Shown here in pieces: positions 2,757 through 45,760 of a DNA stretch of 46,039 bases. The position numbers and the translations under genes are program-made. The DNA comes from a virus: positions 1 to 46,039 of IMG/VR virus record IMGVR_UViG_3300038439_000001; one strand, written 5' to 3'. Position 1 is the stretch's first letter. Every line of letters starts with the position of its first letter. A model generated the notes under the pieces. The model ran no database searches, was not told the DNA's origin, and was given only the letters and a program-made list of their open reading frames with translations.

Positions 2757-2781
2757 AGTTTATTCAATTTTTAAACGAGAT
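2757..2781. repeat. 25-bp palindrome, degenerate copy
   Basis: Arms AGTTTATTCAA and TTAAACGAGAT with centre TTT. It overlaps the last codons and the TAA stop (2760-2762) of the radical SAM-glycosyltransferase gene. Confidence 0.6.
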
Positions 2782-4862
2782 TGTTTAATCTTATCACGCC
2801 AAGAAAGACCACGAGCGTGAGAAGAACCCTTTTCAAGCTTAATTTGGGTACGGTAGTTGATTATTCCAAGTCCCCATTTCTTGTCCATGTAAGCACGATT
2901 TTTCTTCAATAATGCATCTATATCAAAGCCTTCTTTTTCTTGGATTAAGTTAAAAGTCGAACGACCTTTGTGATAGATGCAAGTGTCAATGGCAAATTCT
3001 GTTTTATATCCAAGCTCACGAGCTGCTATGTTGTAGTCGTTATCGTCCCACATTCCCATATCATAGTTAACATCAAGTAAACCGACTTTATCAATTACTT
3101 CCCTTTTAATTACTGCACAGAGAAAGGCTACGAATGGAGTGGCACAGGTTCGACCAGAATAGTGGGTCTCTAGGTATTGATTAACCTCAGACATAGACAT
3201 AGAAAGTTGATTTGGAACTATAGTATTGTGTAGAGATAGACTATGATGAGAGTCCATCTGTCCATGACCTTGAGGATCAGGCATGGTTAGCGAACCTATA
3301 ATGCCAAGCTTAGGATCACGCTTAAGGATATTAATCATCTTTTCAAGCCATCTATCTGAAACAACTGTGTCGTTGTTGAGGAGGCAGACAAAAGGTGCAG
3401 TTGATGATTGAAGACCTTTGTTTACTGCATTTACGAAACCTTCATTTTTAGACATCTTAATGCTCAAATGAGGCATGTCAGAGATAGTTCGTTCAATATT
3501 TGAACGATCTTTAGATGCATTGTCTACCCAGATTACTTGATAGTCAGTAGTGCAGCGTTTGATACTTTCAAGGCAAGCTATTGTATATTGTTCGTTTTCG
3601 TAAGTAGGAATGATTATGTCGCATTGGGCAGATACTTTGATATTGCCGTCTCCTCTAAGGCCTCTGAGAACAGCATTTATGTAAGTATAGTCTACATCTT
3701 TGACTTTCTGACCATAAGGACAGCGATCGTAGTGGTTACGATCAAGCAATGATAGCCCCTCTTTAATACACTCTTCACCAAGGGAGTTCCCTGGATAAGG
3801 AGTGAAGAAGGCCCAGGAAGGCATTTCAGCTTTGATTGTATCTGCCATTCTTGCAGTTGCTTGAATATCTTCTTTGGTTTCCCAAGGAAGACCAATCATG
3901 TAGTTGGCGTAGATCTTAGCTCCAGCACTGCGAATAATCTTTGCTGACTCAAGATTTTGCTCGACAGTAGTTCCTTTCTTCATCTTATCAAGGATTCGTT
4001 GCGAGCCAGACTCAAAGCCGACTGAGACTAAATCCCACCCAACTTTGACAAGTTTTTGAACTAGGTCTGGATATTTACAGATTCCATCTGCTCTTCCAGC
4101 AGCCCAGAAAGGTAATCCGATTTGAGGGTATTTTTCTATAAATTCTTCAATCCAAGAGGGCTGGATAAGGAAAGTATCATCGTGAATCATGACGCACTCA
4201 GGATGGAGAGTTTCTTTGAGCCACTTTAATTCATTGATCAGTGAATCAACAGAACGCCTTCGTAACTTCTTACCAAAGTGATTGTCTTCAAGGGGTTGAC
4301 AAAAGCCACATTGGTAAGGACATCCTCGTGCAGATGCAACAGAGATCATTTTGGTTAGCTTCCCACCATACCACCAGCCAGCACAGTTTTCAAGACAGTC
4401 TCGATAGATAGTTCGATCAAAGAAAGGAAGCACATCTATATTAAGTGGCTTCTCACCAATGATAGATCGTTCAAATTTTGAACAATCTTGAAGAAACTGA
4501 GGAAAGGTAATTTCACTTTCACCATGGAAGATATAGTCAATATCTGAGTTTTCAATTAACTCATTTGGCGCTGCTGTAACATGATAGCCTCCGACAAGGA
4601 CTTTAGAACCCTGTTCCTTAGCCATATTAACAATCTTCATTCCAATAGGATAGTAGGAACTTTTAAGACCAAAAGCTATTAAATCATATCCTTTGATAGA
4701 TTCTTTCAACTGCTCATCATTGAATAAGATCTTCATATCAAGAAAATCAATATCACAACCTGCATTCTTAGCAACTGTATATGTCATCCCTGCTCCATGA
4801 TCATGCCAGGAATCAAGACCTTGTCCGTTGTAAGGATAGAGTGCGATTAAGAGGGTTTTCAT
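2760..4862 (-). CDS. B12-type radical SAM enzyme fused to GT2 glycosyltransferase
   Basis: A 700-residue two-enzyme fusion. Residues 1-150 resemble a cobalamin-binding-type Rossmann domain (VLVGGYHVTAAP at 88-99). Residues about 170-370 are a radical SAM core with the 4Fe-4S motif C181-x3-C185-x2-C188 and a VGFESGS strand typical of B12-dependent radical SAM proteins. From about residue 411 there is a family 2 GT-A glycosyltransferase (DIIIPTYEN, WVDNAS at 445-450, a metal-binding NND at 496-498). No transmembrane segment is evident. It overlaps the upstream methyltransferase-kinase gene by ATGA, so the two are translationally coupled. Inferred role: making and transferring a modified sugar, on the virion or host surface. 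The substrate is unknown. Two 25-bp palindromes lie inside this gene and a third at its end. Confidence 0.85.
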   Translation of the reverse strand: MKTLLIALYPYNGQGLDSWHDHGAGMTYTVAKNAGCDIDFLDMKILFNDEQLKESIKGYDLIAFGLKSSYYPIGMKIVNMAKEQGSKVLVGGYHVTAAPNELIENSDIDYIFHGESEITFPQFLQDCSKFERSIIGEKPLNIDVLPFFDRTIYRDCLENCAGWWYGGKLTKMISVASARGCPYQCGFCQPLEDNHFGKKLRRRSVDSLINELKWLKETLHPECVMIHDDTFLIQPSWIEEFIEKYPQIGLPFWAAGRADGICKYPDLVQKLVKVGWDLVSVGFESGSQRILDKMKKGTTVEQNLESAKIIRSAGAKIYANYMIGLPWETKEDIQATARMADTIKAEMPSWAFFTPYPGNSLGEECIKEGLSLLDRNHYDRCPYGQKVKDVDYTYINAVLRGLRGDGNIKVSAQCDIIIPTYENEQYTIACLESIKRCTTDYQVIWVDNASKDRSNIERTISDMPHLSIKMSKNEGFVNAVNKGLQSSTAPFVCLLNNDTVVSDRWLEKMINILKRDPKLGIIGSLTMPDPQGHGQMDSHHSLSLHNTIVPNQLSMSMSEVNQYLETHYSGRTCATPFVAFLCAVIKREVIDKVGLLDVNYDMGMWDDNDYNIAARELGYKTEFAIDTCIYHKGRSTFNLIQEKEGFDIDALLKKNRAYMDKKWGLGIINYRTQIKLEKGSSHARGLSWRDKIKQSRLKIE
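3486..3510. repeat. 25-bp palindrome inside a coding sequence
   Basis: Arms AGTTCGTTCAA and TTGAACGATCT, centre TAT. It lies inside the GT2 domain of the radical SAM fusion, where it encodes D-R-S-N-I-E-R-T. The inner six pairs are perfect, with a C-G pair in place of the usual T-A. Confidence 0.85.
4464..4488. repeat. 25-bp palindrome inside a coding sequence
   Basis: Arms AGATCGTTCAA and TTGAACAATCT, centre ATT. It lies between the cobalamin-type and radical SAM domains of the fusion protein, encoding D-C-S-K-F-E-R-S in the same reading frame as the copy at 3486. Confidence 0.85.
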
Positions 4863-5791
4863 AAAGATTCCTTGTTAATCTCTTTAATGTTAGTCCAGCC
4901 ACAATCTCTAAGAAGATCAGCAGCTTTAAGTTTAAAGTCATAGAAACTTAACTCATAACCTTCTATTACTATATCTCTGTTTACATAGCCAGTTAACCAT
5001 GTGTGAAGAGTGTTGATGAAGAAGTCAAGGTATTCATCAAGATAGTGGCCACGTACCAGATTAGCATAGTAAGCAGCTGAAAAAGTTTTATTTGCATCTC
5101 TTGTCAATTCGTTTCTCCAAGCCGCCGCTATATTGTCAGTCATTAGATGTTTGTGATTGAAGTAAGTCTGAGCCAGAGTTGTCTTACCAGTTCCTCCAGG
5201 GCCATAGATGAGAATGGCCTCAGGTAGTGTAGACTTAGGGCCTGAGAGGTGAAAGACATGACGAAGGGAACTGTCAGGACTTATTGTTATACCTTTGTCT
5301 TGGATGCAGGAGAAGTACCTTCCAGCTATGGAGCAGAAAGCTGAGATGGAAGGGATAAAGATGTTTCGGTAAGTGCTAGTGAAGATTGCATCTGGAGATT
5401 CACAGATCCAGAGGTCGCAGATGACTTGTTTGGAACAACGAGCAAAGAGATCAAAGAGATGATTTAGATCTTTGATGTAATGAAGCATGCCTGAAGCCAT
5501 AATAATGTCATAGCATCCATAAATGTCTTCGGCATCTTCACAGCGAAAAGTGAGTTCAGGAAAGATAGAGCTTGCCTGCTTTATAACATCTCGATCTATG
5601 TCAATTCCAGTTACTTGCTTAGCTCCTTGTTGGAGAGCAAGGTAACCTAACATTCCAGTGTTACAGCCACAGTCGAGAACTGTCTTGTCTGTGAAGTCAA
5701 TACCTTGAGTTAGCTGAGCAAACTTAGCAGAAGTATCCATGTCACCTTCTTGGACTACTACACCATCCTTAACTATTCTCTGATAAGGCAC
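4859..5791 (-). CDS. SAM methyltransferase fused to P-loop kinase
   Basis: Class I methyltransferase at the N-terminus: motif I VLDCGCNTG about residues 38-46, a GIDID acidic loop about 62-66, and an MASGMLHY post-motif. A P-loop kinase-like domain follows: Walker A GPGGTGKTT about residues 197-205, then DIVIEGYELS, which resembles small-molecule kinases. I chose the GTG start at 5791 because GGAGG lies 5 bases upstream; a TTG at 5803 would add four residues. It overlaps the radical SAM-glycosyltransferase gene by ATGA. Inferred role: modifies (methylates and phosphorylates) a sugar or similar small substrate together with that neighbour. Neither substrate can be read from the sequence. Confidence 0.75.
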   Translation of the reverse strand: MPYQRIVKDGVVVQEGDMDTSAKFAQLTQGIDFTDKTVLDCGCNTGMLGYLALQQGAKQVTGIDIDRDVIKQASSIFPELTFRCEDAEDIYGCYDIIMASGMLHYIKDLNHLFDLFARCSKQVICDLWICESPDAIFTSTYRNIFIPSISAFCSIAGRYFSCIQDKGITISPDSSLRHVFHLSGPKSTLPEAILIYGPGGTGKTTLAQTYFNHKHLMTDNIAAAWRNELTRDANKTFSAAYYANLVRGHYLDEYLDFFINTLHTWLTGYVNRDIVIEGYELSFYDFKLKAADLLRDCGWTNIKEINKESL

Positions 5792-5804
5792 TATAGCCTC
5801 CAAA

Positions 5805-5829
5805 AGTCCGTTTAATGATTAAATGAACT
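5805..5829. repeat. 25-bp palindrome
   Basis: Arms AGTCCGTTTAA and TTAAATGAACT, centre TGA. It fills the spacer between the holin-like gene and the methyltransferase-kinase gene. Confidence 0.7.
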
Positions 5830-5831
5830 CA

Positions 5832-6005
5832 TTATATCGTATTAGTTTTAGCAATTCCCTGACGGAGGAAGATACCAATCAAACCAGTTAAGGCTATCTG
5901 AATTGCATCTGTTAGAATTATTTCGCCAGATAGAAAACCTCCAATAGCACCGATTACAGCTATGATACCAGTCCAAGTTGTCTTTTGTTTTAGAGTCTCA
6001 TTCAT
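5832..6005 (-). CDS. Small holin-like membrane protein
   Basis: A 57-residue protein with two hydrophobic segments, about residues 12-26 (GIIAVIGAIGGFL) and 33-47 (AIQIALTGLIGIFL), separated by a short SGEIILTD turn. It has a charged N-terminus (MNETLKQK) and a short polar tail. Its start overlaps the stop of the endolysin gene by ATGA. Size, topology and position beside a lytic enzyme suggest a holin that lets the endolysin cross the inner membrane. No family was recognised, so this rests on topology and context. Confidence 0.6.
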   Translation of the reverse strand: MNETLKQKTTWTGIIAVIGAIGGFLSGEIILTDAIQIALTGLIGIFLRQGIAKTNTI

Positions 6006-6415: not shown

Positions 6416-6984
6416 CTACAAGGACTCTACATTTGACTCTTCTGCTATGTCTATCACCACTCCACTCTCTCTTGCAGCCGCAATTCCTCGATTTTTGAAA
6501 CCCTCAATTTCATCTTTTGTTAATATTGTAGAAATATGAGAACTTTGAATCTTTGTTGGAGATTTAAGCCCAGACAACTCAAGCACAACTGTATCAGCTA
6601 CATCTTTACGATCTTTTAAAGTAGCTTCACCTAACTCATTATCAAAAATCTCATGATAAACTTGAAAGGCCTTGGCTGTAAGGACACGAATTTTCTCATA
6701 ATTTTTTTCGCTTCGTCATCTCTTTCTTGACGAATTTCTGAAAGTTTAGCTTTTCCAAGATCTGAATTAACAGTTTGAGATACACAGGCTGGAGTAACGC
6801 CTACAATTTCAGCTACTAAATTATGATTAAGGCCTTGAGAGACTAAATTAAGTATCTCATGGTTGCGTTGCCAGAGTTGTTTAATATTATAGCATTTACG
6901 ATCTTCGCTTCTACGATTATCTACATCTCTAAATTCAAGACCGTAAAGACCGTCTCTTCTTTGAACATCTACTTGTCCGTCCAT
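6416..6984 (-). CDS. Small terminase subunit-like protein, interrupted by a -1 frameshift
   Basis: The frame from ATG 6984 reads an HTH region (LWQRNHEILNLV... VAEIVGVTPACVSQTVNS, about residues 37-74) and then a helix, and stops early at 6631 in an unrelated tail. A -1 shift at a run of seven A residues (6702-6708 on the complement) restores a coherent continuation (NYEKIRVLTAKAFQVYHEIF...) to a TAG at 6416-6418, about 189 residues in all. The combination of an N-terminal HTH, an oligomerisation helix and a C-terminal 'TKDEIE' segment resembles phage small terminase subunits, which recognise packaging sites and hand DNA to the large subunit. The shift could be a sequencing or assembly indel, slippage on A7, or a real mutation. 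It is the first gene of the leftward unit, with a promoter at 7011-7039. Confidence 0.65.
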
Positions 6985-7064: not shown

Positions 7065-7089
7065 AGATTGTTTATGGTTTAAACGATCT
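7065..7089. repeat. 25-bp palindrome in the divergent control region
   Basis: Arms AGATTGTTTAT and TTAAACGATCT, centre GGT. It lies between the leftward promoter (7011-7039) and the rightward promoter (7194-7221). Confidence 0.75.
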
Positions 7090-7827: not shown

Positions 7828-7852
7828 AGATCGTTTAACCATTAAACGGTCT
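7828..7852. repeat. 25-bp palindrome in the origin-like region
   Basis: Arms AGATCGTTTAA and TTAAACGGTCT, centre CCA. It lies about 40 bases before the 7-bp iterons. Confidence 0.85.
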
Positions 7853-8242: not shown

Positions 8243-8267
8243 AGATCGTTTAAAATTTGAACGATCT
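8243..8267. repeat. 25-bp palindrome in the origin-like region
   Basis: Arms AGATCGTTTAA and TTGAACGATCT, centre AAT. It lies between the inverted repeat and the gene at 8335, with a GATC in each arm. Confidence 0.9.
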
Positions 8268-9144: not shown

Positions 9145-9219
9145 ATGGAAGGTTTAGTTTTAGTCTTAATGTTAGTACTTGCAGTTATTTGGACTTTGTG
9201 TGAATATAAGAATGATTAA
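9145..9219 (+). CDS. 24-residue membrane microprotein
   Basis: MEGLVLVLMLVLAVIWTLCEYKND: one transmembrane helix with a short charged tail. A good GAGGAG ribosome site lies about 8 bases upstream. The TAA stop overlaps the 25-bp palindrome at 9218. Function unknown. Confidence 0.5.
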   Translation: MEGLVLVLMLVLAVIWTLCEYKND

Positions 9220-9242
9220 TTCGTTTAATGTTTGAACGATCT
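9218..9242. repeat. 25-bp palindrome
   Basis: Arms AATTCGTTTAA and TTGAACGATCT, centre TGT. It begins within the stop codon of the microprotein gene. Confidence 0.8.
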
Positions 9243-9802: not shown

Positions 9803-9827
9803 AGATCGTTTAATTGTTAAACAAACT
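9803..9827. repeat. 25-bp palindrome
   Basis: Arms AGATCGTTTAA and TTAAACAAACT, centre TTG. It lies in the spacer before the gene at 9845. Confidence 0.85.
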
Positions 9828-11685: not shown

Positions 11686-11710
11686 AGATCGTTTAATCGT
11701 TAAACGATCT
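11686..11710. repeat. 25-bp palindrome, perfect copy
   Basis: Arms AGATCGTTTAA and TTAAACGATCT, centre TCG: a perfect 11-bp dyad with a GATC in each arm. It lies just downstream of a predicted promoter, where an operator would be. Confidence 0.95.
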
Positions 11711-12188: not shown

Positions 12189-12213
12189 AGATTGTTCAAT
12201 GATTCACTTAGTT
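12189..12213. repeat. 25-bp palindrome, degenerate copy
   Basis: Left arm AGATTGTTCAA fits; right arm TTCACTTAGTT is eroded. It lies between the terminator and the ligase gene. Confidence 0.4.
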
Positions 12214-13575: not shown

Positions 13576-13998
13576 ATGAGTAGAAGATTTTATTGTGCAG
13601 AATGTGGTAAAGTACTTATAGTTTCAAGAAAGGCATTGCCTAAGTATGCAACTATTATTGATGTAGTAGAAGTTCACAAGTGTTCTAAGGAACCTATAGA
13701 GTTTGATCTTGAGCCAGTTATTGACTATTCTCAGTTAGCTAGGAAAGACGGAAAGTTCGTTAAAAAATTAAACGATCTTAACCCACCTGCAGCTAAGGGA
13801 ATATTTGGAGGGGTTAGTACCGAAGATCTTCGAGATCGTAGGTTTGATTCAGGGCCTGCGCTAACTAAGATAAATAAAGAGTCTCCCAAATCTACTGCAC
13901 CTAAATCTATCCTCAACATAATTGAGCAGATGGAACTAACCAATACTCCAGAGAATTCTATAAACGACTCAGAAAGTGAGGAGCTAAATAATGGCTAA
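13576..13998 (+). CDS. Zinc-ribbon-like phage protein
   Basis: 140 residues. The N-terminus has C7-A-E-C10 and a later HKC (C36), like a zinc ribbon with one cysteine missing. The rest is low-complexity and polar, probably disordered (PKSTAPKS..., ENSINDSESEE). A 25-bp palindrome is embedded at 13754-13778 and encodes K-F-V-K-K-L-N-D-L. The stop overlaps the next gene's start by 8 bases. Similar small finger proteins are common in environmental phages; function unknown. Confidence 0.65.
   Translation: MSRRFYCAECGKVLIVSRKALPKYATIIDVVEVHKCSKEPIEFDLEPVIDYSQLARKDGKFVKKLNDLNPPAAKGIFGGVSTEDLRDRRFDSGPALTKINKESPKSTAPKSILNIIEQMELTNTPENSINDSESEELNNG
13754..13778. repeat. 25-bp palindrome inside a coding sequence
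   Basis: Arms AGTTCGTTAAA and TTAAACGATCT, centre AAA. It is read as K-F-V-K-K-L-N-D-L, the same frame as the copy inside thyX (K-F-V-Q-Q-L-N-N-L). Confidence 0.85.
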
Positions 13999-18647: not shown

Positions 18648-19156
18648 TGAACTGGGACAATTACTTCCATTCTATATGTACTGCAGTCTCATCAAAGTCT
18701 CCTTGTCTATCTCGTAAGATAGGTGCTATTCTTGTAAAAGATCATTCAATAGTTTCAACAGGATACAATGGGCCTTCAAGAGGTATTCCACACTGTGGAC
18801 ATGAGAGAATGATGAAAGATACTACCTTTGATTTAGTACCAGCAAGTATAAGAAAACCTAGATTTAAGACTGAATGTCCTCGCAAAGTTCTTGGCTATCC
18901 ATCTGGCACTCACATGGAACTTTGCCCTGCCCAACACGCAGAATCAAATGCTATCACCAACGCTGCCCGTCTTGGTGTATCAGTGCTTAACTCAACATTA
19001 TACTTAAACTGTGTAATTCCTTGTAAAAACTGTTTCGGTATGTTAATCAATGCTGGGGTTAAAGAAATAGTAGTTAATGATTATACTGTCTATGATAAAC
19101 ATACACAGTTTTTAATTGAAAATTCTGACATTACAATAAGATCGTTTAATTTATAA
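18647..19156 (+). CDS. dCMP/deoxycytidylate deaminase
   Basis: 169 residues with the zinc cytidine-deaminase fold. The catalytic H-A-E lies in CPAQHAESNAI and the second zinc site in VIPCKNCFGML. N-terminal SRKIGAILVKDHSIVSTGYNGPSRG is typical of dCMP deaminases. A cysteine-containing insertion lies between (CGHERMM...TECPRK). It makes dUMP from dCMP, feeding thymidylate synthesis by the ThyX encoded at 23892. The last residues RSFNL and the stop are supplied by the palindrome at 19139. Confidence 0.9.
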   Translation: MNWDNYFHSICTAVSSKSPCLSRKIGAILVKDHSIVSTGYNGPSRGIPHCGHERMMKDTTFDLVPASIRKPRFKTECPRKVLGYPSGTHMELCPAQHAESNAITNAARLGVSVLNSTLYLNCVIPCKNCFGMLINAGVKEIVVNDYTVYDKHTQFLIENSDITIRSFNL

Positions 19157-19163
19157 ACGAACT
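19139..19163. repeat. 25-bp palindrome at a gene 3' end
   Basis: Arms AGATCGTTTAA and ATAAACGAACT, centre TTT. It encodes the last residues and TAA stop of the dCMP deaminase. Confidence 0.85.
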
Positions 19164-19588: not shown

Positions 19589-19804
19589 ATGGCCGACCTA
19601 AACGACTTTGACTATACATCTATTCTCGATATGAGTAATGATGAGGCTATTGATACACTTCGACAGATTCGTTTATCAAGACGAATCCCTGAGAAGAAAA
19701 CAACTACACGAATATCCACTAAACAAATACACACAAAAACAATAGCTACTATCGATGCTAATATGGCAGCTAATTTATTAAAAATCCTGGAGGGAAACAA
19801 ATGA
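19589..19804 (+). CDS. Small unknown phage protein
   Basis: 71 residues. An acidic N-terminus (DLNDFDYTSILDMSNDEAIDTLRQIRLSRRIPEKK), a basic Thr/Lys-rich linker and a final helix (MAANLLKILEGNK). The two-helix-plus-linker layout recurs before ParB-methyltransferase genes in related phages, as far as I recall. It overlaps the ParB-methyltransferase start by ATGA, so the two are coupled. Confidence 0.65.
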   Translation: MADLNDFDYTSILDMSNDEAIDTLRQIRLSRRIPEKKTTTRISTKQIHTKTIATIDANMAANLLKILEGNK

Positions 19805-21132
19805 TCTCAGTTGGTAAAGTAGGCATGATAGATACTAATAGTATTATAGTTGCCAATGATAGGGCTAGAGAGATAATGGGAGACTTAGATGGAACTGAAG
19901 CTAATATGAAAGAGATAGGTTTAACAACTCCATTAACAGTTAGGGATAATGGAGATGGAACATTTACACTCCTAGCTGGTGAGAGAAGATATAGAATTCT
20001 TCAACGAAATGAAGTTCCTAAAATTCCTGTACGTATATACGAACATGATCTTACTGAACTTGAAATGAAGATCATTGAAAAGTCTGAGAACTTCTTTCGT
20101 AAAGATATGGAGTTCTGGGAGTTAGATAAACTAACCCTTGAAATTCATAGAATGCAACAATCTATTCATGGAACAAAGGCACCAGGGCCTGGACATTCTG
20201 GATGGTCTACAGAAGATACAGGTAATATGTTAGGTGGGGTTTCAAAAGCTACTATATCCCTTGCCATCAAACGTGCTGAGTTGAGAGAACAACTACCAGA
20301 AGTATTTGAAGGATGTAAGACAGCATCTGATGCTTCTAATATCATTAAGAAGATGGACGAAGCGTTGGTAAAGCAAGTGATTGCCAAACAACTTGAGTCA
20401 AAGACAGATAATAAACTATTAAGTCAATTATCAAAGTGTTTTATTATCAAGGATTTTTTTGAAGGTGTAAAGGAAATACCTGCTGGAGCATTTCACTTAG
20501 TTGAAATAGACCCTCCGTATGGAATAAATTTAGATGGTTCAAATGTAGGTAGTTCTGCTAAGAAAAACTATACTTATTCAAGTTCTTATAACGAAGTAAG
20601 TGTTACTGAATATCAAGAATTTATTTCAAATGTTTTAAAAGAGTGTTATCGAGTAATGGCTGATCACTCCTGGTTGTTATGCTGGTTTGCACCAGAACCT
20701 TGGTTTGCAACTTTATACAATGAGCTTATTCAAGCAGGGTTTGAAACAACTCGTATGTGTCCTATATGGACTAAGCACTTTGGACAATCCAAAAGACCAG
20801 AAATGCACTTGGCAAATAGTTATGAGATATTCTTCTATGCATGGAAAGGAAGACCAGCTATGAGTAAACCAGGTAGAGCAAATGAGTTTAACTTTCCACC
20901 TGTCCCACCTCAGCAGAAGTCTCATCCTACAGAACGCCCTGTAGAATTGATGAAAGAAATATATGAGACGTTTGCCTTTCCAGGTTCTCGCATCTTAATT
21001 CCATTTCTTGGTTCAGGTAGTGGACTTATAGCTGCACATCAGGCTGGAATGTCAGCCATAGGATTTGAACTATCACAGTCTTATAAGAATAGTTTTCTTG
21101 TAAAAGTTCATGGGATGTCTGGAGGTAAATAA
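19801..21132 (+). CDS. ParB-like domain + HTH fused to DNA methyltransferase
   Basis: 443 residues. Residues 10-90 are a ParB/Srx-type domain with A-G-E-R-R-Y-R at 59-65, the box that binds CTP in ParB. Residues about 138-160 (TGNMLGGVSKATISLAIKRAE) are a ParB-type helix-turn-helix. From 215 on is an amino-methyltransferase: E-I-D-P-P-Y-G around 235-241, and a C-terminal FLGSGSGL SAM loop, i.e. motif IV before motif I (beta class, N6-adenine or N4-cytosine). Predicted to methylate phage DNA, with site choice through the ParB/HTH part. Its target is unknown; the 25-bp palindromes, most of which carry GATC, are candidates. Confidence 0.85.
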   Translation: MISVGKVGMIDTNSIIVANDRAREIMGDLDGTEANMKEIGLTTPLTVRDNGDGTFTLLAGERRYRILQRNEVPKIPVRIYEHDLTELEMKIIEKSENFFRKDMEFWELDKLTLEIHRMQQSIHGTKAPGPGHSGWSTEDTGNMLGGVSKATISLAIKRAELREQLPEVFEGCKTASDASNIIKKMDEALVKQVIAKQLESKTDNKLLSQLSKCFIIKDFFEGVKEIPAGAFHLVEIDPPYGINLDGSNVGSSAKKNYTYSSSYNEVSVTEYQEFISNVLKECYRVMADHSWLLCWFAPEPWFATLYNELIQAGFETTRMCPIWTKHFGQSKRPEMHLANSYEIFFYAWKGRPAMSKPGRANEFNFPPVPPQQKSHPTERPVELMKEIYETFAFPGSRILIPFLGSGSGLIAAHQAGMSAIGFELSQSYKNSFLVKVHGMSGGK

Positions 21133-21165: not shown

Positions 21166-21190
21166 AGTTCGTTCAATTTATAAACGATCT
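21166..21190. repeat. 25-bp palindrome
   Basis: Arms AGTTCGTTCAA and ATAAACGATCT, centre TTT. It lies in the spacer just after the ParB-methyltransferase gene. Confidence 0.85.
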
Positions 21191-23917: not shown

Positions 23918-24596
23918 AATCATGGAGATTATGGGAATGTCTAAAAATGTAGATGAAGCTGATGGACGAGATGCACTTGAGTTAATTGAGCGAGCTGGAA
24001 GAACTTGCTATAAATCTGAGGATAAGATAAATCCACTTCAATATACCTGTATTAAATTTGTTCAACAATTAAACAATCTTGGACATGAATCAGTTATTGA
24101 ACATTCAGCTATGACTGTTAAATTTATCTGTGATCGTGGAGTTTCACATGAACTGGTGAGACATAGACTATGTGCCTTTAGTCAGGAGTCAACAAGATAT
24201 TGCAACTATAAAGGTGGAGTAACTTTTGTAATTCCTCCTTGGATATCTATTCCAGAGGGAGAATATAGCTACAGGTTTGTAGAGGGATTATGTTTCTTTG
24301 AGCCACCTTCAATAATTGATATAGGAGATGAATGGGCATCTAGTATGGCATATAGTGAGCAGGCATATACTACCCTTGTTTTAGAAGACGGCTGGACTCC
24401 TCAACAAGCTCGTTCTGTTCTACCTAATTCACTCAAAACTGAGATCGTAGTTACGGCAAACTTTCGTGAGTGGAGACATATATTCAAGCTTCGTTGCGCT
24501 CCACCTGCTCACCCTCAGATGCGTGAGATAATGACTCCCCTTCATAAAAAATGTAAGGAACTTGTTCCTATAATCTTTGATGACATTATCTACTAA
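23892..24596 (+). CDS. thyX: Flavin-dependent thymidylate synthase ThyX
   Basis: 234 residues with the ThyX motif R90-H-R-L-C-A-F-S-Q-E-S-T-R-Y (RHRxxSx7S class), preceded by ESVIEHSAMTVKF and followed near the end by ANFREWRHIFKLR. It makes dTMP from dUMP using FAD, NADPH and methylene-tetrahydrofolate. Together with dCMP deaminase (18647) it gives the phage its own thymidylate route. It overlaps the polymerase end by 26 bases. A 25-bp palindrome is embedded at 24055-24079 (K-F-V-Q-Q-L-N-N-L). Confidence 0.92.
   Translation: MKLVKPSFEIMEIMGMSKNVDEADGRDALELIERAGRTCYKSEDKINPLQYTCIKFVQQLNNLGHESVIEHSAMTVKFICDRGVSHELVRHRLCAFSQESTRYCNYKGGVTFVIPPWISIPEGEYSYRFVEGLCFFEPPSIIDIGDEWASSMAYSEQAYTTLVLEDGWTPQQARSVLPNSLKTEIVVTANFREWRHIFKLRCAPPAHPQMREIMTPLHKKCKELVPIIFDDIIY
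24055..24079. repeat. 25-bp palindrome inside thyX
   Basis: Arms AATTTGTTCAA and TTAAACAATCT, centre CAA. It falls in the conserved N-terminal helix of ThyX, before the ESVIEH segment. No GATC is present in either arm. Confidence 0.7.
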
Positions 24597-25796: not shown

Positions 25797-25946
25797 ATGA
25801 CTAAAAAAGAAAAGATGAAATACCAAGTTAGAGAAAAAGAATGCTATAGTAGAGAATGCTTTATGCCATTCTCTGGTAATGGAATTAAAATCTGTAGATT
25901 GTATGAATTAGGGAGGTGTCCTAAGAAGTATAGATCGTTTAATTAA
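25797..25946 (+). CDS. 49-residue four-cysteine zinc-binding protein
   Basis: MTKKEKMKYQ VREKECYSRE, then a finger with cysteines at 16, 21, 33 and 41 (ECYSREC ... KICRLYELGRCP). A short zinc knuckle, possibly nucleic-acid binding. The end R-S-F-N and the stop codon come from the 25-bp palindrome at 25932. It is the last gene of the rightward unit. Confidence 0.6.
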   Translation: MTKKEKMKYQVREKECYSRECFMPFSGNGIKICRLYELGRCPKKYRSFN

Positions 25947-25956
25947 TAAACAATCT
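25932..25956. repeat. 25-bp palindrome at the convergence point
   Basis: Arms AGATCGTTTAA and ATAAACAATCT, centre TTA. It lies where the rightward and leftward units meet. It contains the stop of the + strand gene and two bases of the stop of the - strand gene, so it is placed as a bidirectional end element. Confidence 0.9.
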
Positions 25957-28900: not shown

Positions 28901-31822
28901 TTTTTTAGTTTTCTTAAGCTTCTTTAATTCATTTATCCTCTTTACAATATTAACAAGGTCAGTCTTTGTCTTCTTCACTAACCTTGCAATCTCTATAGGG
29001 TCTATTCCTGTATAGAGTTTAGTTCCTTCAGTAGACTGCATAAAATTAGAATCACCTCTTAGACCCTTAGGATAATTTATTATACCTTCATCACCTAACA
29101 TATACTCAAGCGTCTCCCAAGGAGGTTCAGTCTTCCTCTGCTCAGGGGTCATCTTCATCCTTTTCTCACTCAACCTAGCTTCCAGCTCACCAGGATCTTT
29201 CATGTAAGATTCGAATGGAGTATCTTCACCAAAGAATATCTCAGATATTTTTTCGTACTCACTTACACTTATTCTTTCAGCTTTTTCAAATATAGGATCA
29301 ACAAGAGTTCTAAGGGATACAGTCTTATTAGATCCTTGCCATATATTTATAGCTGCGTCAATCTCCTTTATTATTTTTGAGTCTTTAGCTACTTTTTTCA
29401 TCTTGGATAAGATTGTAGAAGTTCTGATTATTTCTTGTGCCTCAGGACTACTCCCTCTAAACTTTGACTCCATTATATCATTTACAGCATGTTGAACTTC
29501 ATGAACTATAATATCTTTTTCAGGGTATTTTACAGTTATTATTTTGCCTCCAGCACTATATTGTCCTAAATTTTCTTTCATCTCCTTAACTATTATCTTA
29601 AGATTTCTAAGTTCAGGGACTGCATCAAACAGAGTAGGATGGCTTACAACTTCAGTTAGGTCATGCACTTCCCGATCTAGTAGTTCAGGCTTAACCTTAA
29701 GTCCTTCATCTCCTATCTCATACCTCCACTTTCTATCCCTCCCTAACCAATAGCCAGTTGCGTCAAATACTTCTTTATTCCTATACAACACATTTCCAAC
29801 TGTAGTTTTAATCCCCTTTAAAACATCTTTAACCATACTAGGGATTTGATCTACAGGGATCATCATGTTGAGTTGGACACCACCAGTTTGTTTAACAATT
29901 AAACGATCTGCTTCTCTCGCCCACTTTGCCGCCTCACTAACTGTATCTTTCCAAATGTTAAAGTCATTAGTCTCAGCAAAGTGTCTGCTTAGTTCATCTG
30001 CCCTTGTAGACATATCACTTAATCTATCTTTAATCTCATTAATAGAAACCTTCTCACCATTTAGCCATCTATTAACTTCATTAATTAAATAACGAGTATA
30101 GGTCTCAGGTGAGCTCTCTACACTTTTAATCTTTTCAGTAAACAACTTATTCATTGTATCAGTATGCTTTATATTCTTATCACGAAATGGGCTGGATTCA
30201 GTATCTAATTCCTTAGGTCGTAGAGTTCCAGTTAATTCATCTAGTTTAGTAATCTCTAATATTTCCTTAGCAGCTTCTTCAATATCCATCTTTCTCTGAA
30301 TTCTTTTCTTCTCTTTAATATAATCTCCAGGTTTTATTTCTTTGTTGTCAAGCTTAGTTTTTAATGTAGATAGTTCGTCTGCTTTGTTAGGAATAGTTAC
30401 AGTATCTTTAGGTTTAACTATACTCTCCTCAATAAACTCAAGGCCTGTTTTTGTAACAGGCTCAACTGCTTCAGGTTCAGGTTCAACTAATTCCTTAGCC
30501 TTAGCTACCTTAGCCTTCTTAACCTTCTCCCCTTTAATCTTTAGATCTTCCTTGACAACTTCCTCTATATCAACTTTATCAACTATCTCTTTCTTTGCTG
30601 CTAGCTCAGCTTGTATATCTTCTATCTCAGTAATTCTTGTCTTAGCTTTCTCAATCATGTTAGGCTCAATAGATGGAATATCTTTATCTTCCACAACTTT
30701 AGTCTCAACCTTGCCAGATGTAGTAGGCATAACTGGAGTTAGCTTAAAATCTGTTCCTGTATATGGAGTAGGTGGAGGTTTTGATGATGGAGTATAGTTA
30801 AAGGCTGATTCTAGACCTTTGGCTTCTATAGATTTAGTAATAGATTCAACAGCAGCCTTAGCAGCACCTCTTGTACCCTTAACACCTATATGCAGTCCTT
30901 TAGCTCCAATAAAGAATGTTATGAGTTCTTCATAAGGCATTCCGACAAGCTCAGGTCTTCCACCTGCCCATTTGATAAATTCATGTGCCATAGACTGCTC
31001 AAATAATTTTCTTGCAGGAGAAGCTACATATGTATGAGCTAACTCGAAAGGTATCCCTAATATATAGCCTCCTGCTTTTGCTAAGAAAGCTCCTTCTTCA
31101 GTATAAGGCTGATAGGTTGTAAGTGATGCTCCTCGCTCAGATAGTTCACGTGCCTCATCTTCAGACATTCCTTGAGCCATATAGGTGTATTTGGTAGCTA
31201 AGGCTGCCATAGTACTCATTATTCCTGAACCTAACGACATTGCTGCTTCAGGTATAGCAACTGCATTTTTACCTATCTTAGTCCATATAGGGTGTTCTTT
31301 AGTTACTTTAGTAAAAGCTTCATACAGATCACCACCAACCTCTGCAGCCTTAACACCTAAACTATCTGCTATAGCTGTAGTTCTAGTATATACCCTATTA
31401 GATATATCTGAAACTGCTTTACGTAACTCAGTTGATAATGAAGGAGTTTTATAAGGCACTCCTCCTTCATCTAAAGGTTCACCCTTCTTACCAAACCCCC
31501 CAGGAGGTTTAGGAGCCTCTAAAGTATCTAATGACTGCCCAGGAATCAAAGGAACAAGCCAAGGAGATTGACCTAGTTCAAAGTAGTTCCTAAGTGCATT
31601 AAGTCTCTGCTGTTCAATCTTAGCAGATTCAGGATCTATATTAGATGCACTAATATCAATCATATGTCTAGGAGGTTTAGGTTGAACTTGAGGATCTTCA
31701 TTTAAAAACTCAAGTCCAGTTATAGCCTCTGGAGATACTATAGATGGAGGCTGAGGCTGAGATTGACTCCTATCCTGAATATTATTTTGTTTATCATCTA
31801 AAAACTCAAGCCCTGTAGACAT
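25955..31822 (-). CDS. Giant internal virion protein with HExxH metallopeptidase motif
   Basis: 1955 residues. The N-terminus has a short repeated motif T-G-L-E-F-[LI] (residues about 3, 35 and again near 460) spaced by disordered P/Q/E-rich sequence. A zinc-peptidase motif H-E-V-Q-H occurs near residue 773. Downstream is a long helical region; FATGINQAFALRNLPRDAMQAWF resembles LPD38-like parts of large polyvalent phage proteins. Such proteins are packaged and injected with DNA to open the envelope or protect the genome. It is the last and largest late gene. A 25-bp palindrome is embedded at 29885-29909. I see no lytic domain. Confidence 0.75.
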   Translation of the reverse strand: MSTGLEFLDDKQNNIQDRSQSQPQPPSIVSPEAITGLEFLNEDPQVQPKPPRHMIDISASNIDPESAKIEQQRLNALRNYFELGQSPWLVPLIPGQSLDTLEAPKPPGGFGKKGEPLDEGGVPYKTPSLSTELRKAVSDISNRVYTRTTAIADSLGVKAAEVGGDLYEAFTKVTKEHPIWTKIGKNAVAIPEAAMSLGSGIMSTMAALATKYTYMAQGMSEDEARELSERGASLTTYQPYTEEGAFLAKAGGYILGIPFELAHTYVASPARKLFEQSMAHEFIKWAGGRPELVGMPYEELITFFIGAKGLHIGVKGTRGAAKAAVESITKSIEAKGLESAFNYTPSSKPPPTPYTGTDFKLTPVMPTTSGKVETKVVEDKDIPSIEPNMIEKAKTRITEIEDIQAELAAKKEIVDKVDIEEVVKEDLKIKGEKVKKAKVAKAKELVEPEPEAVEPVTKTGLEFIEESIVKPKDTVTIPNKADELSTLKTKLDNKEIKPGDYIKEKKRIQRKMDIEEAAKEILEITKLDELTGTLRPKELDTESSPFRDKNIKHTDTMNKLFTEKIKSVESSPETYTRYLINEVNRWLNGEKVSINEIKDRLSDMSTRADELSRHFAETNDFNIWKDTVSEAAKWAREADRLIVKQTGGVQLNMMIPVDQIPSMVKDVLKGIKTTVGNVLYRNKEVFDATGYWLGRDRKWRYEIGDEGLKVKPELLDREVHDLTEVVSHPTLFDAVPELRNLKIIVKEMKENLGQYSAGGKIITVKYPEKDIIVHEVQHAVNDIMESKFRGSSPEAQEIIRTSTILSKMKKVAKDSKIIKEIDAAINIWQGSNKTVSLRTLVDPIFEKAERISVSEYEKISEIFFGEDTPFESYMKDPGELEARLSEKRMKMTPEQRKTEPPWETLEYMLGDEGIINYPKGLRGDSNFMQSTEGTKLYTGIDPIEIARLVKKTKTDLVNIVKRINELKKLKKTKKATKEHTVELTELYNRHKELIAEQEEYTLESKKLSEASDDATTQAIADLKAREPYTQASIIKLADAHNKGMKKAVEMKEFNIKEATKLLRRKFTASFAERSGTTRRLLAKDDRGYEAMSSMYMARGGHPKAFRVFEQMRKEVDGGLSADEKFIKNGLIRDLRILDIVKYKTPKQFTPPADATPQMAAMYTTMFRSKEINKIRDLTPEEAHRLYHVREDGTVGGRVGAYFDWMRKAVKDAYEEGLLSEQEMKDLTSHNYKKTRLVVEDIFDRKNEIKVGGKKLSVYDSGIERLAKGKTTDIYELDSNVVALETFNTLYSRIFKNRANRDIYDLAIEEKENSFARVKQSKGDKIPENFRHYTTDVFIDGKKKTIFLSDDIGPEWIMSNAQVTYKYAQFMRYASFSPLVKTFATGINQAFALRNLPRDAMQAWFTSRVLRPEKSKVFGRFQSVYSPTLPIAAYQLGKHYSKIFKDAALRRGTFDDYIDDGGGMELLTPQGRLLFHGKHLEPASEAFYKFAGYLGTTSEILGRMSIKNKVIETRAKEKGISFEEAYKDKKIRKEATFAARDYMDFSQGGDIVKALDNAIPFLNAKLVAMRGFIRAWKDQPVVSAYKLTQFAALVTGLYLGNQELHPDTMKDLKGDRRTQGNLVFPLGDMFGFKDSMNDTRYPFIMIPINQDMRFFKTLFEGGVDWMTGEEVDTERIGQAWRDLSPVEVTTLPPTVSGALGYATNKDFWLGKDIVPKAHDYRLPKILTGEETGSSEEEWDKDTPQVAKDIGKVTSMSPERLKYLMGQLITNDNMYAQLLGKAYEGAFGDLPQKDREATLAESLSKVPVIKAFFGITNPYSKFADTLQQAKDKAEIDNFIETRGLDIRVDAYLIDNTMDRVDVVNYIREFKNKDIEDKLMKDFKFQEYTKDLSNRYFWTGLKRIPDIRRRAEVYVKRLDASNEKEFQQLMDEVTIVTRAGGIFSKEFNDEVARVRSGQ
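29885..29909. repeat. 25-bp palindrome inside the giant virion gene
   Basis: Arms AGTTTGTTTAA and TTAAACGATCT, centre CAA. On the coding (minus) strand it reads D-R-L-I-V-K-Q-T, the same frame as the copies at 3486 and 4464. It is identical to the intergenic copies at 36029 and 39906. Confidence 0.9.
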
Positions 31823-34052: not shown

Positions 34053-34077
34053 AGATCGTTTAATGATTAAACAATCT
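34053..34077. repeat. 25-bp palindrome at a gene 3' end
   Basis: Arms AGATCGTTTAA and TTAAACAATCT, centre TGA. It supplies the last codons (K-I-V) and stop of the acetyltransferase-like gene and leaves a short gap before the next ribosome site. Confidence 0.9.
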
Positions 34078-36028: not shown

Positions 36029-36053
36029 AGTTTGTTTAACAATTAAACGATCT
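36029..36053. repeat. 25-bp palindrome
   Basis: Arms AGTTTGTTTAA and TTAAACGATCT, centre CAA. It lies in the spacer between the structural genes at 36072 and 34510, just before the 29-residue frame. Confidence 0.9.
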
Positions 36054-38681: not shown

Positions 38682-38706
38682 AGATTGTTTAATTGTTAAA
38701 CGAACT
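38682..38706. repeat. 25-bp palindrome before the capsid gene
   Basis: Arms AGATTGTTTAA and TTAAACGAACT, centre TTG. It lies just upstream (on the minus strand) of the capsid ribosome site. Confidence 0.85.
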
Positions 38707-39085: not shown

Positions 39086-39886
39086 TTACCTCCTGATAAA
39101 TTTATTCATCTCATCAATCTCATTTTGAAGAGATGATGTTTCTGGTTGGATAGGAGACTGTCTTTGACCACTTTTCTTAACTGGTAATATAGGTGGTTTT
39201 TTGTCTTTTTTATCTCCTACAGCTTGCTCATGTAACTCCAGTCTTTTACGTACCTCAGGAGCTACAAGTTTCATTATCTCATTATACTTTTTATCTGGGT
39301 TTTCAGATGCAACTTCCTCAAATACAGTTGCCACTACCTTCTTAAATGGAGTAAGATCTTTATTATCGTCATAAAACTGCTCACTCATTCTTTTCAGGTT
39401 TGTTACAATCTCTATATTATTCTTTACAATACCAGGAATTGAAAGAAGAACCTTTTCACTAGCTAACTTCTTCGCATCTGCAACCCCCTTCGTATAAACA
39501 GAATTGAGAAGCTTATTAAACATATCCTTGTCTCTAATAGCATCATCAAGGTCTATGTCTCCAATAAAGTCTTGTTCTTCAAACTTATCTGGTTCTTCAA
39601 TAATTGGTTCGTCTTTCTTAGGGACTACTATATTCTCTTCGAGTTTTCTACGAAGATCTTCAATGATCTTGTCCTTGTCATCTATCTCTACCACAGACTC
39701 AGATTCAGATTCAGATTCAGACTCAGATTCTGACTCAACTATAGGCTCAACTACTGATTCAACTACCGACTCAATCACAGGTTCTATCACAAGGTCAGTA
39801 ACAGACCCAACCACAAGGTTATCCTCGACCAAGTGCCCTGAACCAAGAGCATTCGACATATCATTTAACTCTTCCCTTAATCCCAT
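39086..39886 (-). CDS. Scaffold protein candidate with Ser-Glu repeat
   Basis: 266 residues, very acidic and helical. Residues about 30-64 contain tandem V-x-E-P-V/V-V-E-S units and a pure SESESESESES stretch from a (TCAGAT)n-like DNA repeat (about 39700-39740). The rest is helical (DKDKIIEDLRRKLEENI; KYNEIMKLVAPEVRKRLELHEQAV) with a basic proline tail (KPPILPVKKSGQ). A scaffold guides capsid assembly and leaves; acidity, helices and location directly before decoration and capsid genes agree. Confidence 0.7.
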   Translation of the reverse strand: MGLREELNDMSNALGSGHLVEDNLVVGSVTDLVIEPVIESVVESVVEPIVESESESESESESESVVEIDDKDKIIEDLRRKLEENIVVPKKDEPIIEEPDKFEEQDFIGDIDLDDAIRDKDMFNKLLNSVYTKGVADAKKLASEKVLLSIPGIVKNNIEIVTNLKRMSEQFYDDNKDLTPFKKVVATVFEEVASENPDKKYNEIMKLVAPEVRKRLELHEQAVGDKKDKKPPILPVKKSGQRQSPIQPETSSLQNEIDEMNKFIRR

Positions 39887-39905: not shown

Positions 39906-39930
39906 AGTTTGTTTAACAATTAAACGATCT
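39906..39930. repeat. 25-bp palindrome at a gene 3' end
   Basis: Arms AGTTTGTTTAA and TTAAACGATCT, centre CAA. Its end provides two bases of the TAG stop (39929-39931) of the gene at 39929. Confidence 0.9.
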
Positions 39931-43007: not shown

Positions 43008-43017
43008 ATCATCCTCC

Positions 43018-43959: not shown

Positions 43960-43968
43960 TGCTTATCC

Positions 43969-43993
43969 AGTTTGTTTAATGTTTAAACGATCT
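43969..43993. repeat. 25-bp palindrome at a gene 3' end
   Basis: Arms AGTTTGTTTAA and TTAAACGATCT, centre TGT. It supplies the last codons (K-I-V) and stop of the XhlA-like gene, exactly as the copy at 34053 does for its gene. Confidence 0.9.
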
Positions 43994-44183
43994 TAAAAAC
44001 AATATTGACTAAAAGCATTACTATTGCCACTACTATACCACCGAGAATAAAGTTTAACCTTGTCATTATATTGTCCATTCTTTCCCTTCCTTTATCTAAT
44101 TCTTCCCACTGTTTAGAAGTATTTGATTCAAGAGTTAATATAGCCTTACAAATCCCACTATGCTCAGAACAAGAATTATCCAT
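43983..44183 (-). CDS. XhlA-like small membrane protein
   Basis: 66 residues from ATG 44183 (one base shared with the large terminase stop, TAATG); a further start at 44198 is inside the terminase. N-terminal Cys-His segment (MDNSCSEHSGIC), a coiled coil (LTLESNTSKQWEELDKGRERMDNIMTRL) and one transmembrane helix (FILGGIVVAIVMLLVNIVF) ending K-I-V. This topology matches XhlA/haemolysin-type holin accessories. Together with the 5832 protein it gives two lysis candidates. Confidence 0.6.
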   Translation of the reverse strand: MDNSCSEHSGICKAILTLESNTSKQWEELDKGRERMDNIMTRLNFILGGIVVAIVMLLVNIVFKIV

Positions 44184-45724
44184 TAGACACATCTCCAATC
44201 TTCAATGGGCTTTTCATAATCTAACTCTTTATACTCAATCTCTATATCGTTAATGTCTTCTTTAGGTGAAAAGTATCTCTCACCAAGTTCAAGCATCTCA
44301 ATGAGATAAGCTTCAGCATCCATCAGATCCCATAAAGCAGATCGAGGAAACATAAGTAATTGTTGTTCAAGCTTTTTGATACCTGCACAAGACGCATTGT
44401 GATAGATGTAGCCACCACGATAGTAAGGTACAAGCTCCTTTATACGATGCTCTTTTTTCATCCCACCACGAGCTTTAAGCCAAATAAGTTCATAGAAACT
44501 TCCCCGCCTAAACATCTCATTTTTAATAGGTTGTTTGATGAACTCATTGAGCGAGGTTTCTTCAATACCTAATACTTTCGCTCCTAACATCTGAGCCATT
44601 CCAAACATAGCATCATAGATTTCATCTGGATACATTTTTTCAGATACTATATCCCTAATAAAGACCTTTGCACTATTAAGATCAATACCTATACCAATGA
44701 TAGCACTTTCAGCAGAGTGAATCTTGACTGTTTTAGCAGGATCAAGAATGACAACTGTTTCAATATTCTGATTTTGTTGAACTTCAACATCAAGTAACTT
44801 AAGGTCATTCTCATCTCCATGACGATCTAGAGGCAGATTATAATAATGAAAATATTCAGTTCTAAATGCAGAGTCCTTTGTTGATATAGGAAGATTACGA
44901 AGCTCACGAAAAAACACATCTGTTTGACCTGCTTCTACATGCTGATTCCATTCCTTCATAACATCTTCATCAGACATAAAGTCAGGGGCTGTAGATTTGA
45001 AGCTGTCATCGCAAGCTTCAAGTCGAACAGATGCCCAATCTGAAGAATCAAGTAACTTTTGTAATACAGAGTCTTCATGTTTAAGAGTGTCAATGTATAC
45101 TATTTTCCAATTCTTTACATTAGACCCTATCCGTGGAACAGATTTGATTACGTCTGCATAAAGCCACTCATACCATCCTTTGCGAATCTCATCATTGTTA
45201 ATGCTGTCAGGGTCTTCAAGATCATCTATAACAATTAGACCTGGCCGATCATTCTTGAACAAAACACCTCGAACCTGCTGGCCAGCTCCACGAGGCCAGA
45301 CTAATGTATCATAAGCAACCCAAGCTTTTTTGCTAAACACTTCGTCAAAGTCTTTGTTATCTGCATCTCGATGTTTGAAAGGGCCGAAGAATGCTTTGAT
45401 ATCTCGATTCGTTACAAGCTCACGGCGTAAGTTTTCAGTTTGAAGCGATGCAGCATCGTGAGACTTGTTTATGTAGACAATGAACCCTGTATGCCTAAAC
45501 AAAATCCATCTTGCCATCAGTGCAAGTGCAACTATACTTGTCTTTCCCCATCCACGAGGAGCTGCAATAGCTACTTTCTGAGCATCACTATCAATGAGAT
45601 CAAATATCTTCCCATGAACTCCTTCAGCAAAAGGTAAACTAAAACGATCAGGGAAGAACGTCGAAGCAGTCATTCGAGTTGAGATGCTACATTGAGATAG
45701 AATTTGTTTAATGTCTTGATCCAT
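44183..45724 (-). CDS. Terminase large subunit
   Basis: 513 residues. ATPase domain: Walker A A55-P-R-G-W-G-K-T62, Walker B G-L-I-V-I-D-D-L-E at 162-170, with a following motif-III-like VYIDTLKHED. Nuclease domain: D328 in VVILDPAKT, then IIGIGIDLNSAKVFIRDIV and LGIEETSLNEF (second acidic residue), with GGMKKEHRIKELVPYY near the end. It drives DNA into the procapsid and cuts concatemers; partners are the small subunit at 6416-6984 and the portal at 40674. The two terminase genes are far apart on the linear window but both lie in the late unit if the ends join. Confidence 0.92.
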   Translation of the reverse strand: MDQDIKQILSQCSISTRMTASTFFPDRFSLPFAEGVHGKIFDLIDSDAQKVAIAAPRGWGKTSIVALALMARWILFRHTGFIVYINKSHDAASLQTENLRRELVTNRDIKAFFGPFKHRDADNKDFDEVFSKKAWVAYDTLVWPRGAGQQVRGVLFKNDRPGLIVIDDLEDPDSINNDEIRKGWYEWLYADVIKSVPRIGSNVKNWKIVYIDTLKHEDSVLQKLLDSSDWASVRLEACDDSFKSTAPDFMSDEDVMKEWNQHVEAGQTDVFFRELRNLPISTKDSAFRTEYFHYYNLPLDRHGDENDLKLLDVEVQQNQNIETVVILDPAKTVKIHSAESAIIGIGIDLNSAKVFIRDIVSEKMYPDEIYDAMFGMAQMLGAKVLGIEETSLNEFIKQPIKNEMFRRGSFYELIWLKARGGMKKEHRIKELVPYYRGGYIYHNASCAGIKKLEQQLLMFPRSALWDLMDAEAYLIEMLELGERYFSPKEDINDIEIEYKELDYEKPIEDWRCV

Positions 45725-45735
45725 TAAAATTCCTT

Positions 45736-45760
45736 AGTTCGTTTAATAATTAAACAATCT
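45736..45760. repeat. 25-bp palindrome before the terminase
   Basis: Arms AGTTCGTTTAA and TTAAACAATCT, centre TAA. Located between the tailspike C-terminal frame and the large terminase gene. Neither arm contains GATC. Confidence 0.85.

Follow-up and report, generated by a model that had tools for sequence, protein, structure and literature searches.

The window analysed here, i.e. the whole 46,039-nucleotide stretch of the phage record IMGVR_UViG_3300038439_000001, carries 22 copies of a 25-bp palindrome made of two 11-bp arms and three central bases, at about one copy per 2-3 kb. The fixed length and the layout of the arms claimed in an earlier note on this DNA are correct, while the central bases, described there as variable, are constrained, being mostly T.A or A/T-rich. 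From left to right, the series opens with a degenerate yet genuine copy (2757-2781; position weight matrix (PWM) score 20.4) overlapping the stop codon of a leftward 700-aa ORF. Two copies lie within this ORF (3486-3510 and 4464-4488) and five are intergenic (5805-5829, 7828-7852, 8243-8267, 9218-9242 and 9803-9827), all seven being assigned by PWM and position, and the intergenic copy at 11686-11710 has perfect arms and the top score (PWM 36.5). The copy at 7065-7089, in the divergent early intergenic region, is flanked by two promoter-like sequences, and its junction holds sites in 20 instances. Also assigned by PWM and position are the copies overlapping the stop of the deaminase gene (19139-19163), inside a thyX-like gene (24055-24079), between genes (36029-36053), upstream of terL (45736-45760), and overlapping stops at gene boundaries (34053-34077, 43969-43993 and 39906-39930, the last one with a junction comparison in addition). 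PWM and comparison of junctions or gene families support the copies between the ParB-methyltransferase gene and polA (21166-21190; 29 instances of this junction among relatives carry a site), at the convergence of both transcription units (25932-25956; occupied in 22 instances), upstream of the major capsid gene (38682-38706), inside the ORF 13576-13998 (13754-13778), whose family has 27 intragenic sites across relatives, mostly ~180 nt from the start, and inside a 1955-aa ORF (29885-29909), whose family has 52 across the records.

The reality of this family was assessed in several ways. A symmetric PWM scan of the 46,039 bases, as the earlier note had advised, gave scores of 20.4-36.5 to 22 of the 23 windows listed in that note, against 3.7 for the best non-listed window. 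The remaining one, at 12189, scores 10.0 and has no right arm, and was dropped as a chance half-site. The comparison with shuffled sequence, named beforehand as a means to refute the family, left it standing, since the PWM maximum never exceeded 12.4 in 50 dinucleotide shuffles of the genome, far below the true sites. Besides, a pattern search allowing up to 3 mismatches recovered the same 22 palindromes (none in the reversed control), and a de novo palindrome discovery run independently of the earlier list also returned 22 copies.

The second ground for refutation, absence from relatives, met with the opposite outcome: in a sample of ~45 related phage contigs, nearly every one has a private 25-bp palindrome, with 13-24 copies in each of the long contigs and far fewer palindromes in shuffled relatives than in the real ones. 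The palindrome word differs from one phage to another and is kept alike genome-wide within a phage. Conservation of position, which the earlier note had proposed to test, was confirmed too, as shared gene junctions are occupied in different phages, although by different words. Across the records, 507 of 664 sites lie outside genes, compared to 11% of random positions, and stop codons are overlapped by 35% of the sites against 3% of random positions. The spacing is also more even than random (coefficient of variation 0.57 versus 0.92, combined p about 5e-33). The outer half-site bases 1-2 follow the clade rather than any single residue of a protein. Gene-less contigs comprise one long relative, G040 (32 kb), which has neither the ParB-methyltransferase gene nor the sites, and L093 (5.7 kb), which makes a second but weak case. 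Conversely, L372 possesses the gene (43% identity), yet no palindrome was found in its 17.9 kb. G033 (R149) seemed site-less in the first discovery run and has 15 copies with G7 by a relaxed search. Further away, an outgroup Desulfofustis phage, MD01 (OP947158), whose protein is 40% identical, carries nine 29-bp palindromes following the residue-base rule described below, with K149 and a G equally far from the dyad. The full-length fusions of Vibrio phage VS-ABTNL-3, Microcystis phage Mel-JY34 and ctMlz233 (22-24% identity) came with no clear palindrome family, and their helix-turn-helix (HTH) could not be aligned.

The protein linked to these sites is encoded at 19801-21132 on the plus strand, in a gene adjoining polA and primase. 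Its 443 residues comprise a ParB N-terminal (CTPase-fold) domain, an HTH and a beta-class N6/N4 DNA methyltransferase, as indicated by Pfam (ParB_N, 2.8e-08; N6_N4_Mtase, 1.3e-21) and by an AlphaFold model (pLDDT 82) which matches structures of Noc, ParB, CcrM, M.RsrI and MboIIA. The fold of the ParB part matches 7NFU, 7OL9 and 7BM8, and Noc is among its best PDB matches by both profile and fold. In terms of CTPase boxes (GERR; ENxxR), G60, R62 and R63 are nearly invariant in the family and E96, N97 and R100 invariant, a fold and box combination typical of the ParB/Noc family. In the same way, the order of the nearly invariant DPPY (D237PPY240) and FxGxG (F402LGSG406) is that of beta-class N6/N4 methyltransferases. 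In G049/L092, the catalytic DPPY is replaced by DIDY, and methylation is therefore not essential in every lineage. The HTH (residues 137-164; 20209-20292, plus strand), with a recognition helix starting at residue 149, was placed from the model secondary structure and a weakly scoring alignment with the P1 ParB HTH (2NTZ); this alignment alone was retained, the HTH-only profile search yielding mostly chance PDB matches.

The link between protein and sites arises from covariation. Residue 149, a lysine here (codon 20245-20247, plus strand), varies with half-site bases 6-7: K goes with G6T7, D/N/G with A6, Q with A7, and R/H mostly with G7. It aligns with residue 173, known to set specificity in ParB/Noc, where the arginine of ParB goes with G and the glutamine of Noc reads A (PMC7383237). 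Among 7,300 columns of conserved proteins, it ranks second for positions 6 and 7 together, outranked only by the residue that an intragenic site itself encodes, and residue 148 of the same protein ranks first for half-site position 9. Within the ParB-methyltransferase, column 149 is by far the best (AMI 0.49), the next being residue 148 (0.26). About 15 coordinated changes of residue and base are independent; on the methyltransferase-domain tree, joint origins number 4 for Q149 with A7, 6 for R/H149 with G7 and 5 for D/N/G149 with A6. The rule fits 19 of 21 members of the Q, R/H and D/N/G classes; counting against it are the H149 phages L255 and L256, scored T7, and the non-Q phages L084 and L261, scored A7. 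The tree test was run without L262, L263, L272, L275 and L276, whose motifs are no better than shuffles or are of low complexity, and the motif quality filter and the representatives are the analyst's choices. In an initial ranking of the columns by partial correlation, outgroups prevailed, and the comparison of whole-protein with motif distances put replication genes highest without singling out a binder, which the residue-level test did. Of the four products proposed earlier as candidate binders, covariation thus points to that of 19801, those of 7305, 8526 and 11747 displaying little or none with the site. An HTH protein encoded at 6631-6984 was also considered and rejected, since its recognition helix (HPQTVSNTLNS) is the same in phages with very different words. 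Judged from these sequence data, binding of the palindromes by the ParB-methyltransferase is very probable, and its HTH is predicted in silico to read them through the first recognition-helix residue, as in the ParB/Noc family.

The earlier note had left the choice between a protein dimer site and a functional hairpin. Arms of 11 bp, 3-base loops and a location mostly between genes would suit RNA hairpins acting in processing, pausing or termination. Still, deviations occur in both arms 240 times for 362 expected from independent arms, and where paired arm bases fail to match on the transcript strand, A.C (477) prevails over G.U (276). With neither compensatory changes nor a wobble preference, the arms do not covary, and the palindromes are therefore protein-dimer DNA sites. 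A single word per phage genome-wide would be needless for a hairpin, and this word follows a DNA-binding residue, which makes the hairpin exceedingly improbable. No more credible is a mobile palindromic repeat multiplied independently in each phage: it would account for the many near-identical copies per genome, but the same junctions hold different words in different phages, the word is coupled to the ParB residue, and gene and sites are absent together in G040; conservation of position thus refutes it.

Among the known systems, the phage protein shares with ParB of chromosomes and ParABS phages or plasmids the CTPase-fold boxes and the HTH. The canonical parS core is GTTTCACGTGAAAC, and the inner half-site GTTTAA...TTAAAC resembles it. 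In place of the 16-bp parS TGTTNCACGTGNAACA, the phage has a 25-bp site with a 3-bp centre, of which only the inner GTTT...AAAC is parS-like. In addition, parS occurs in small numbers grouped close to origins, no recognisable ParA ATPase partner, as in ParABS, turned up in the set of window proteins that was scanned, and the methyltransferase stands where ParB has its C-terminal dimer domain. The Noc-NBS system of Bacillus subtilis likewise associates a ParB-family dimer with palindromes scattered over a whole replicon (~70 NBS; PMC4331003) and shares the specificity residue, Q173 reading A (PMC7383237). It differs in that NBS are 16 bp long and far less dense, and Noc has a membrane-binding N-terminus instead of an attached DNA methyltransferase. 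KorB of plasmid RK2 is also a ParB-family sliding clamp with several operators on one replicon (PMC11790492), but has a 16-bp OB, a regulatory partner, KorA, and no methyltransferase. The same domain combination, ParB CTPase fold plus N6_N4 methyltransferase, is phage-enriched according to a 2025 survey (PMC12704722), in the consulted passages of which no DNA target sites or genome-wide arrays are given; the function is left open there.

The resemblance to stoperators suggested earlier is partial. Those of cluster A mycobacteriophages, up to ~30 per genome, are dispersed as well, with a per-phage motif drift that tracks the binding protein (PMC6550527), and the ~20 sites per genome, their dispersal and their co-diversification with a DNA-binding protein recall them. 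Stoperators are nevertheless asymmetric 13-bp sites mostly in one orientation, bound by the immunity repressor of temperate phages, whereas the sites here are symmetric and go with a ParB-methyltransferase; neither an integrase nor an immunity repressor was seen among the scanned proteins, and full-length matches in genome contigs lie on free-standing contigs of ~45-50 kb or on short fragments, with no host-flanked copy. A reading of the sites as stoperators that serve an overlooked repressor and have nothing to do with the ParB protein is accordingly very improbable and already largely refuted, as ParB residue 149 beats every protein column but the site-encoded one and the 6631-6984 protein keeps its recognition helix whatever the word. 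If the sites do belong to the ParB-methyltransferase, they might act in transcription, as dispersed KorB-like operators or silencers at gene boundaries, the methyltransferase being incidental. Most sites are indeed at gene junctions and dense near the early divergent region, and KorB silences promoters up to 1.5 kb from its operators (PMC11790492). But avoidance of coding sequence would give the same placement, internal sites in long genes (52 in the family of the 1955-aa ORF, 27 in that of ORF 13576-13998) are needless for a promoter operator, and the site of the early region lies clear of the best promoter-like sequences, so that this role is rather unlikely. Organisation, condensation or segregation of phage DNA, centromere- or nucleoid-like as for NBS with Noc or parS in ParABS, appears distinctly unlikely: it fits the even spacing and the NBS layout, the nearest known for a ParB relative (PMC4331003), but not the lack of a recognised ParA among the scanned proteins, of an integrase or of a host-flanked copy, nor the catalytic motifs kept in nearly all lineages.

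Taking mechanism and sites as a whole, the probable explanation is that the ParB-methyltransferase encoded by the phage itself recognises the 22 palindromes as parS-like sites distributed over the genome. A dimer would bind each palindrome through its HTH domains, nucleotide binding would close the clamp as in ParB, Noc and KorB, and the clamp would leave the site and slide, sites every ~2-3 kb thereby loading clamps across the entire genome. That the palindromes are such loading sites for a spreading clamp is somewhat more likely than not. According to the PNAS 2025 survey (PMC12704722), the nucleotide bound by ParB-fold fusions may be ATP or GTP, and many of those tested showed no NTP binding; clamp behaviour should therefore not be assumed. 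The attached methyltransferase would favour phage over host DNA as its substrate, or the protein would coat phage DNA preferentially, and this probably at about the time of replication, as the gene adjoins polA and primase. The likeliest benefit would be that replicating phage DNA is self-marked and thereby shielded from restriction by the host; genome-wide methylation as the purpose of the sites is a possibility of slightly less than even standing. Equally tentative is the picture of a hitherto undescribed self-recognition system in a virulent lineage, in which private parS-like sites every 2-3 kb would let a clamp carry the methyltransferase over the phage's own genome and not the host's, sites and recognition residue co-diversifying into phage-specific pairs.

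In the literature, this fusion class is known, and a description of its DNA sites was not found. The palindromes would thus be the first DNA target, predicted from sequence, for a common and unexplained class of phage ParB-methyltransferases. With them come a recognition code that can be read for this class and natural pairs of protein and site by the dozen. They also offer a natural series in which a DNA-binding protein and ~20 sites per genome shift specificity together. Finally, the idea of a sliding clamp confining a modifying enzyme to one replicon becomes testable and, if true, would amount to anti-restriction or self-marking of a new kind.

Among the 23 palindromes of 25 bp listed in the earlier note, 22 are real, scoring 20.4-36.5 bits with a symmetric weight matrix and being recovered by de novo discovery, while the copy at 12189 was rejected as a half-site. 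The best-scoring position of the window outside these 22 sites reaches 3.7 bits, and the suggested comparison with shuffled genomes, which attain at most 12.4 bits, sustains the family. Each half-site is numbered A1 G2 A/T3 T4 C/T5 G6 T7 T8 T/C9 A10 A11, followed by three central bases and the mirror image. Relatives gathered via terminase, DNA polymerase, and ParB-methyltransferase form one clade of phage contigs, many of 42-52 kb, whose complete records were compared. These relatives, a scan of which the note had proposed, were searched for palindromes blind to the window's word, and nearly every record holds a private family, with 13-24 copies in the long ones; in shuffled sequence, seed families had a size of 1-5. 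The words include AGATAATTAAATaATTTAATTATCT (G024), CCTTCGTTTAATaATTAAACGAAGG (G026), ACTCAGTGTAATcATTACACTGAGT (G038), AGTTCGATCCAAaTTGGATCGAACT (G030), AGATCGTTTTGGaCCAAAACGATCT (G031), and AGACCCATTAAaaaTTAATGGGTCT (G009), and a sister clade whose proteins are 38-44% identical carries palindromes that are shorter or similar, such as CCTATGTTCAAtaaTTGAACATAGG. A single word per genome, words unlike between genomes, and a constant geometry imply a trans-acting factor that keeps the sites alike.

From the fixed length and preserved dyad, either a protein dimer site or a functional hairpin had been envisaged. Departures from a genome's word affect one arm in 1657 cases and both arms in 240, fewer than the 362 expected for independent arms, and arm mismatches oriented by transcription are more often A.C (477) than G.U (276), which argues for a DNA-binding dimer and against the hairpin. 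Regarding placement, 507 of 664 sites from 44 records lie outside genes, compared to 11% of random positions, and 35% overlap a stop codon (3% at random). Recurrent locations across relatives are the ParB-methyltransferase/polA junction (29 instances), the convergence of the primase and 1955-aa genes (22), the divergent early region (20), and, within genes, f24, the family of window ORF 13576-13998 (27). The junction preference may partly be due to avoidance of coding sequence, but internal sites are present in long genes as well. Spacing is more even than with random placement (median CV 0.57 vs 0.92), the largest gap being 0.65 of expectation. In three loci (L075, L076, L083), the match to polA exceeds that of relatives by about 900 bases, suggestive of an intein or intron.

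As for the binder, whole-protein distances between gene families built across 47 records singled out no candidate. A ranking of 7,300 protein columns by their association with the dominant bases of half-site positions 6 and 7 placed residue 149 of the ParB-methyltransferase (19801-21132, +) second. Only f24 residue 66 ranked higher; the palindrome within f24 encodes this residue, which thereby provides an internal positive control. With respect to position 9, ParB-methyltransferase residue 148 ranked first. The other conserved HTH protein is an unlikely binder, its helix being invariant. Across 63 quality-filtered representatives and the window, K149 occurs with G6T7 (28/28), D/N/G149 with A6T7 (9/9), Q149 with A7 (4/4), R/H149 with G7 (6/8), and P149 with G6T7 (9/10). 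On a tree of the methyltransferase domain only, parsimony gives 5 origins of the joint residue-base state for D/N/G, 4 for Q, and 6 for R/H, hence an estimated ~15 independent coordinated events, a figure that depends on parsimony and on our own filters. A relaxed search in the R149 phage G033 found 15 site copies with G7, fitting the same rule. The distantly related Desulfofustis phage MD01 (OP947158), predicted strictly lytic by its authors (PMC10370329), has a ParB-methyltransferase of 40% identity with K149, and its word TTGCTATGTCCCAANTTGGGACATAGCAA, present in 9 copies, has G and T equally far from the dyad as in the window's clade. In the structure model, residue 149 starts the recognition helix within a G-x-S-[K/R/Q] motif, whose equivalent in Caulobacter ParB is G170-K171-S172-R173. 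ParB R173 pairs with G1 and Noc Q173 reads A1 (PMC7383237), the same rule (R with G, Q with A) as in this phage clade. The sites and the ParB-methyltransferase are shown in silico to belong together.

Natural absences were also encountered. The 32-kb G040 has the clade's genes with the ParB-methyltransferase gene missing upstream of polA, which that gene's neighbour f13 abuts instead, and no convincing site was found in it with the weight matrix of any relative; L093 is a second, weaker case. The clearest exception in the opposite direction is L372, where the gene is present and no palindrome was found in 17.9 kb. Besides, the G049/L092 protein has DIDY for the catalytic DPPY while keeping the ParB boxes and HTH, and the search of 43 kb there recovered no more than six palindromes. 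Across relatives, hardly any variation is seen in the clamp boxes or in the catalytic motifs DPPY and FLGSG. Pfam assigns ParB_N and N6_N4_Mtase domains, and the model (pLDDT 82; pTM 0.56, making relative domain placement uncertain) matches N6-adenine/N4-cytosine methyltransferases and Noc/ParB. In L195, L196, L197, and L198, which come from ctMlz233 and from phages with Desulfofustis, Vibrio, or Microcystis as annotated host, the genes for ParB-methyltransferase, DNA polymerase, and, where annotated, primase/DUF3987 are likewise closely grouped.

The window has further features. ORFs at 1-2745 and 45766-46039 (both -) run off the contig ends on the same strand, and the contig could represent an almost complete genome, circularly permuted and cut within one gene. 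The conserved HTH gene, possibly terminase-small-like (6416-6984, -), is divided over two reading frames, its frameshift near 6630-6700 being real or an assembly error; the G037 homologue reads through. The ORF at 39086-39886 (-) encodes a scaffold-like protein in which a Ser-Glu dipeptide is repeated, and a second methyltransferase-like protein (Methyltransf_25; 4859-5803, -), unrelated to the ParB-methyltransferase, lies in the late unit beside a glycosyltransferase-like ORF.

The fusion of a ParB fold with an N6_N4 methyltransferase is already known (PMC12704722), and the literature searched, whose coverage is incomplete, yielded no account of site arrays belonging to proteins of this type. 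A rival, less likely reading is that the sites act as dispersed silencers, KorB being able to act on promoters up to 1.5 kb distant (PMC11790492), and such a role could coexist with one for the methyltransferase. By analogy with ParB, Noc, and KorB, the ParB-methyltransferase would load as a clamp at the sites and then slide. Noc amounts would suffice for ~1-2 kb of protein at each site (PMC4331003), about half of the site spacing in the window's phage; with a KorB- or Noc-like reach, one load per 2-3 kb would cover the 46-kb genome, and the methyltransferase would thereby be retained on phage DNA.
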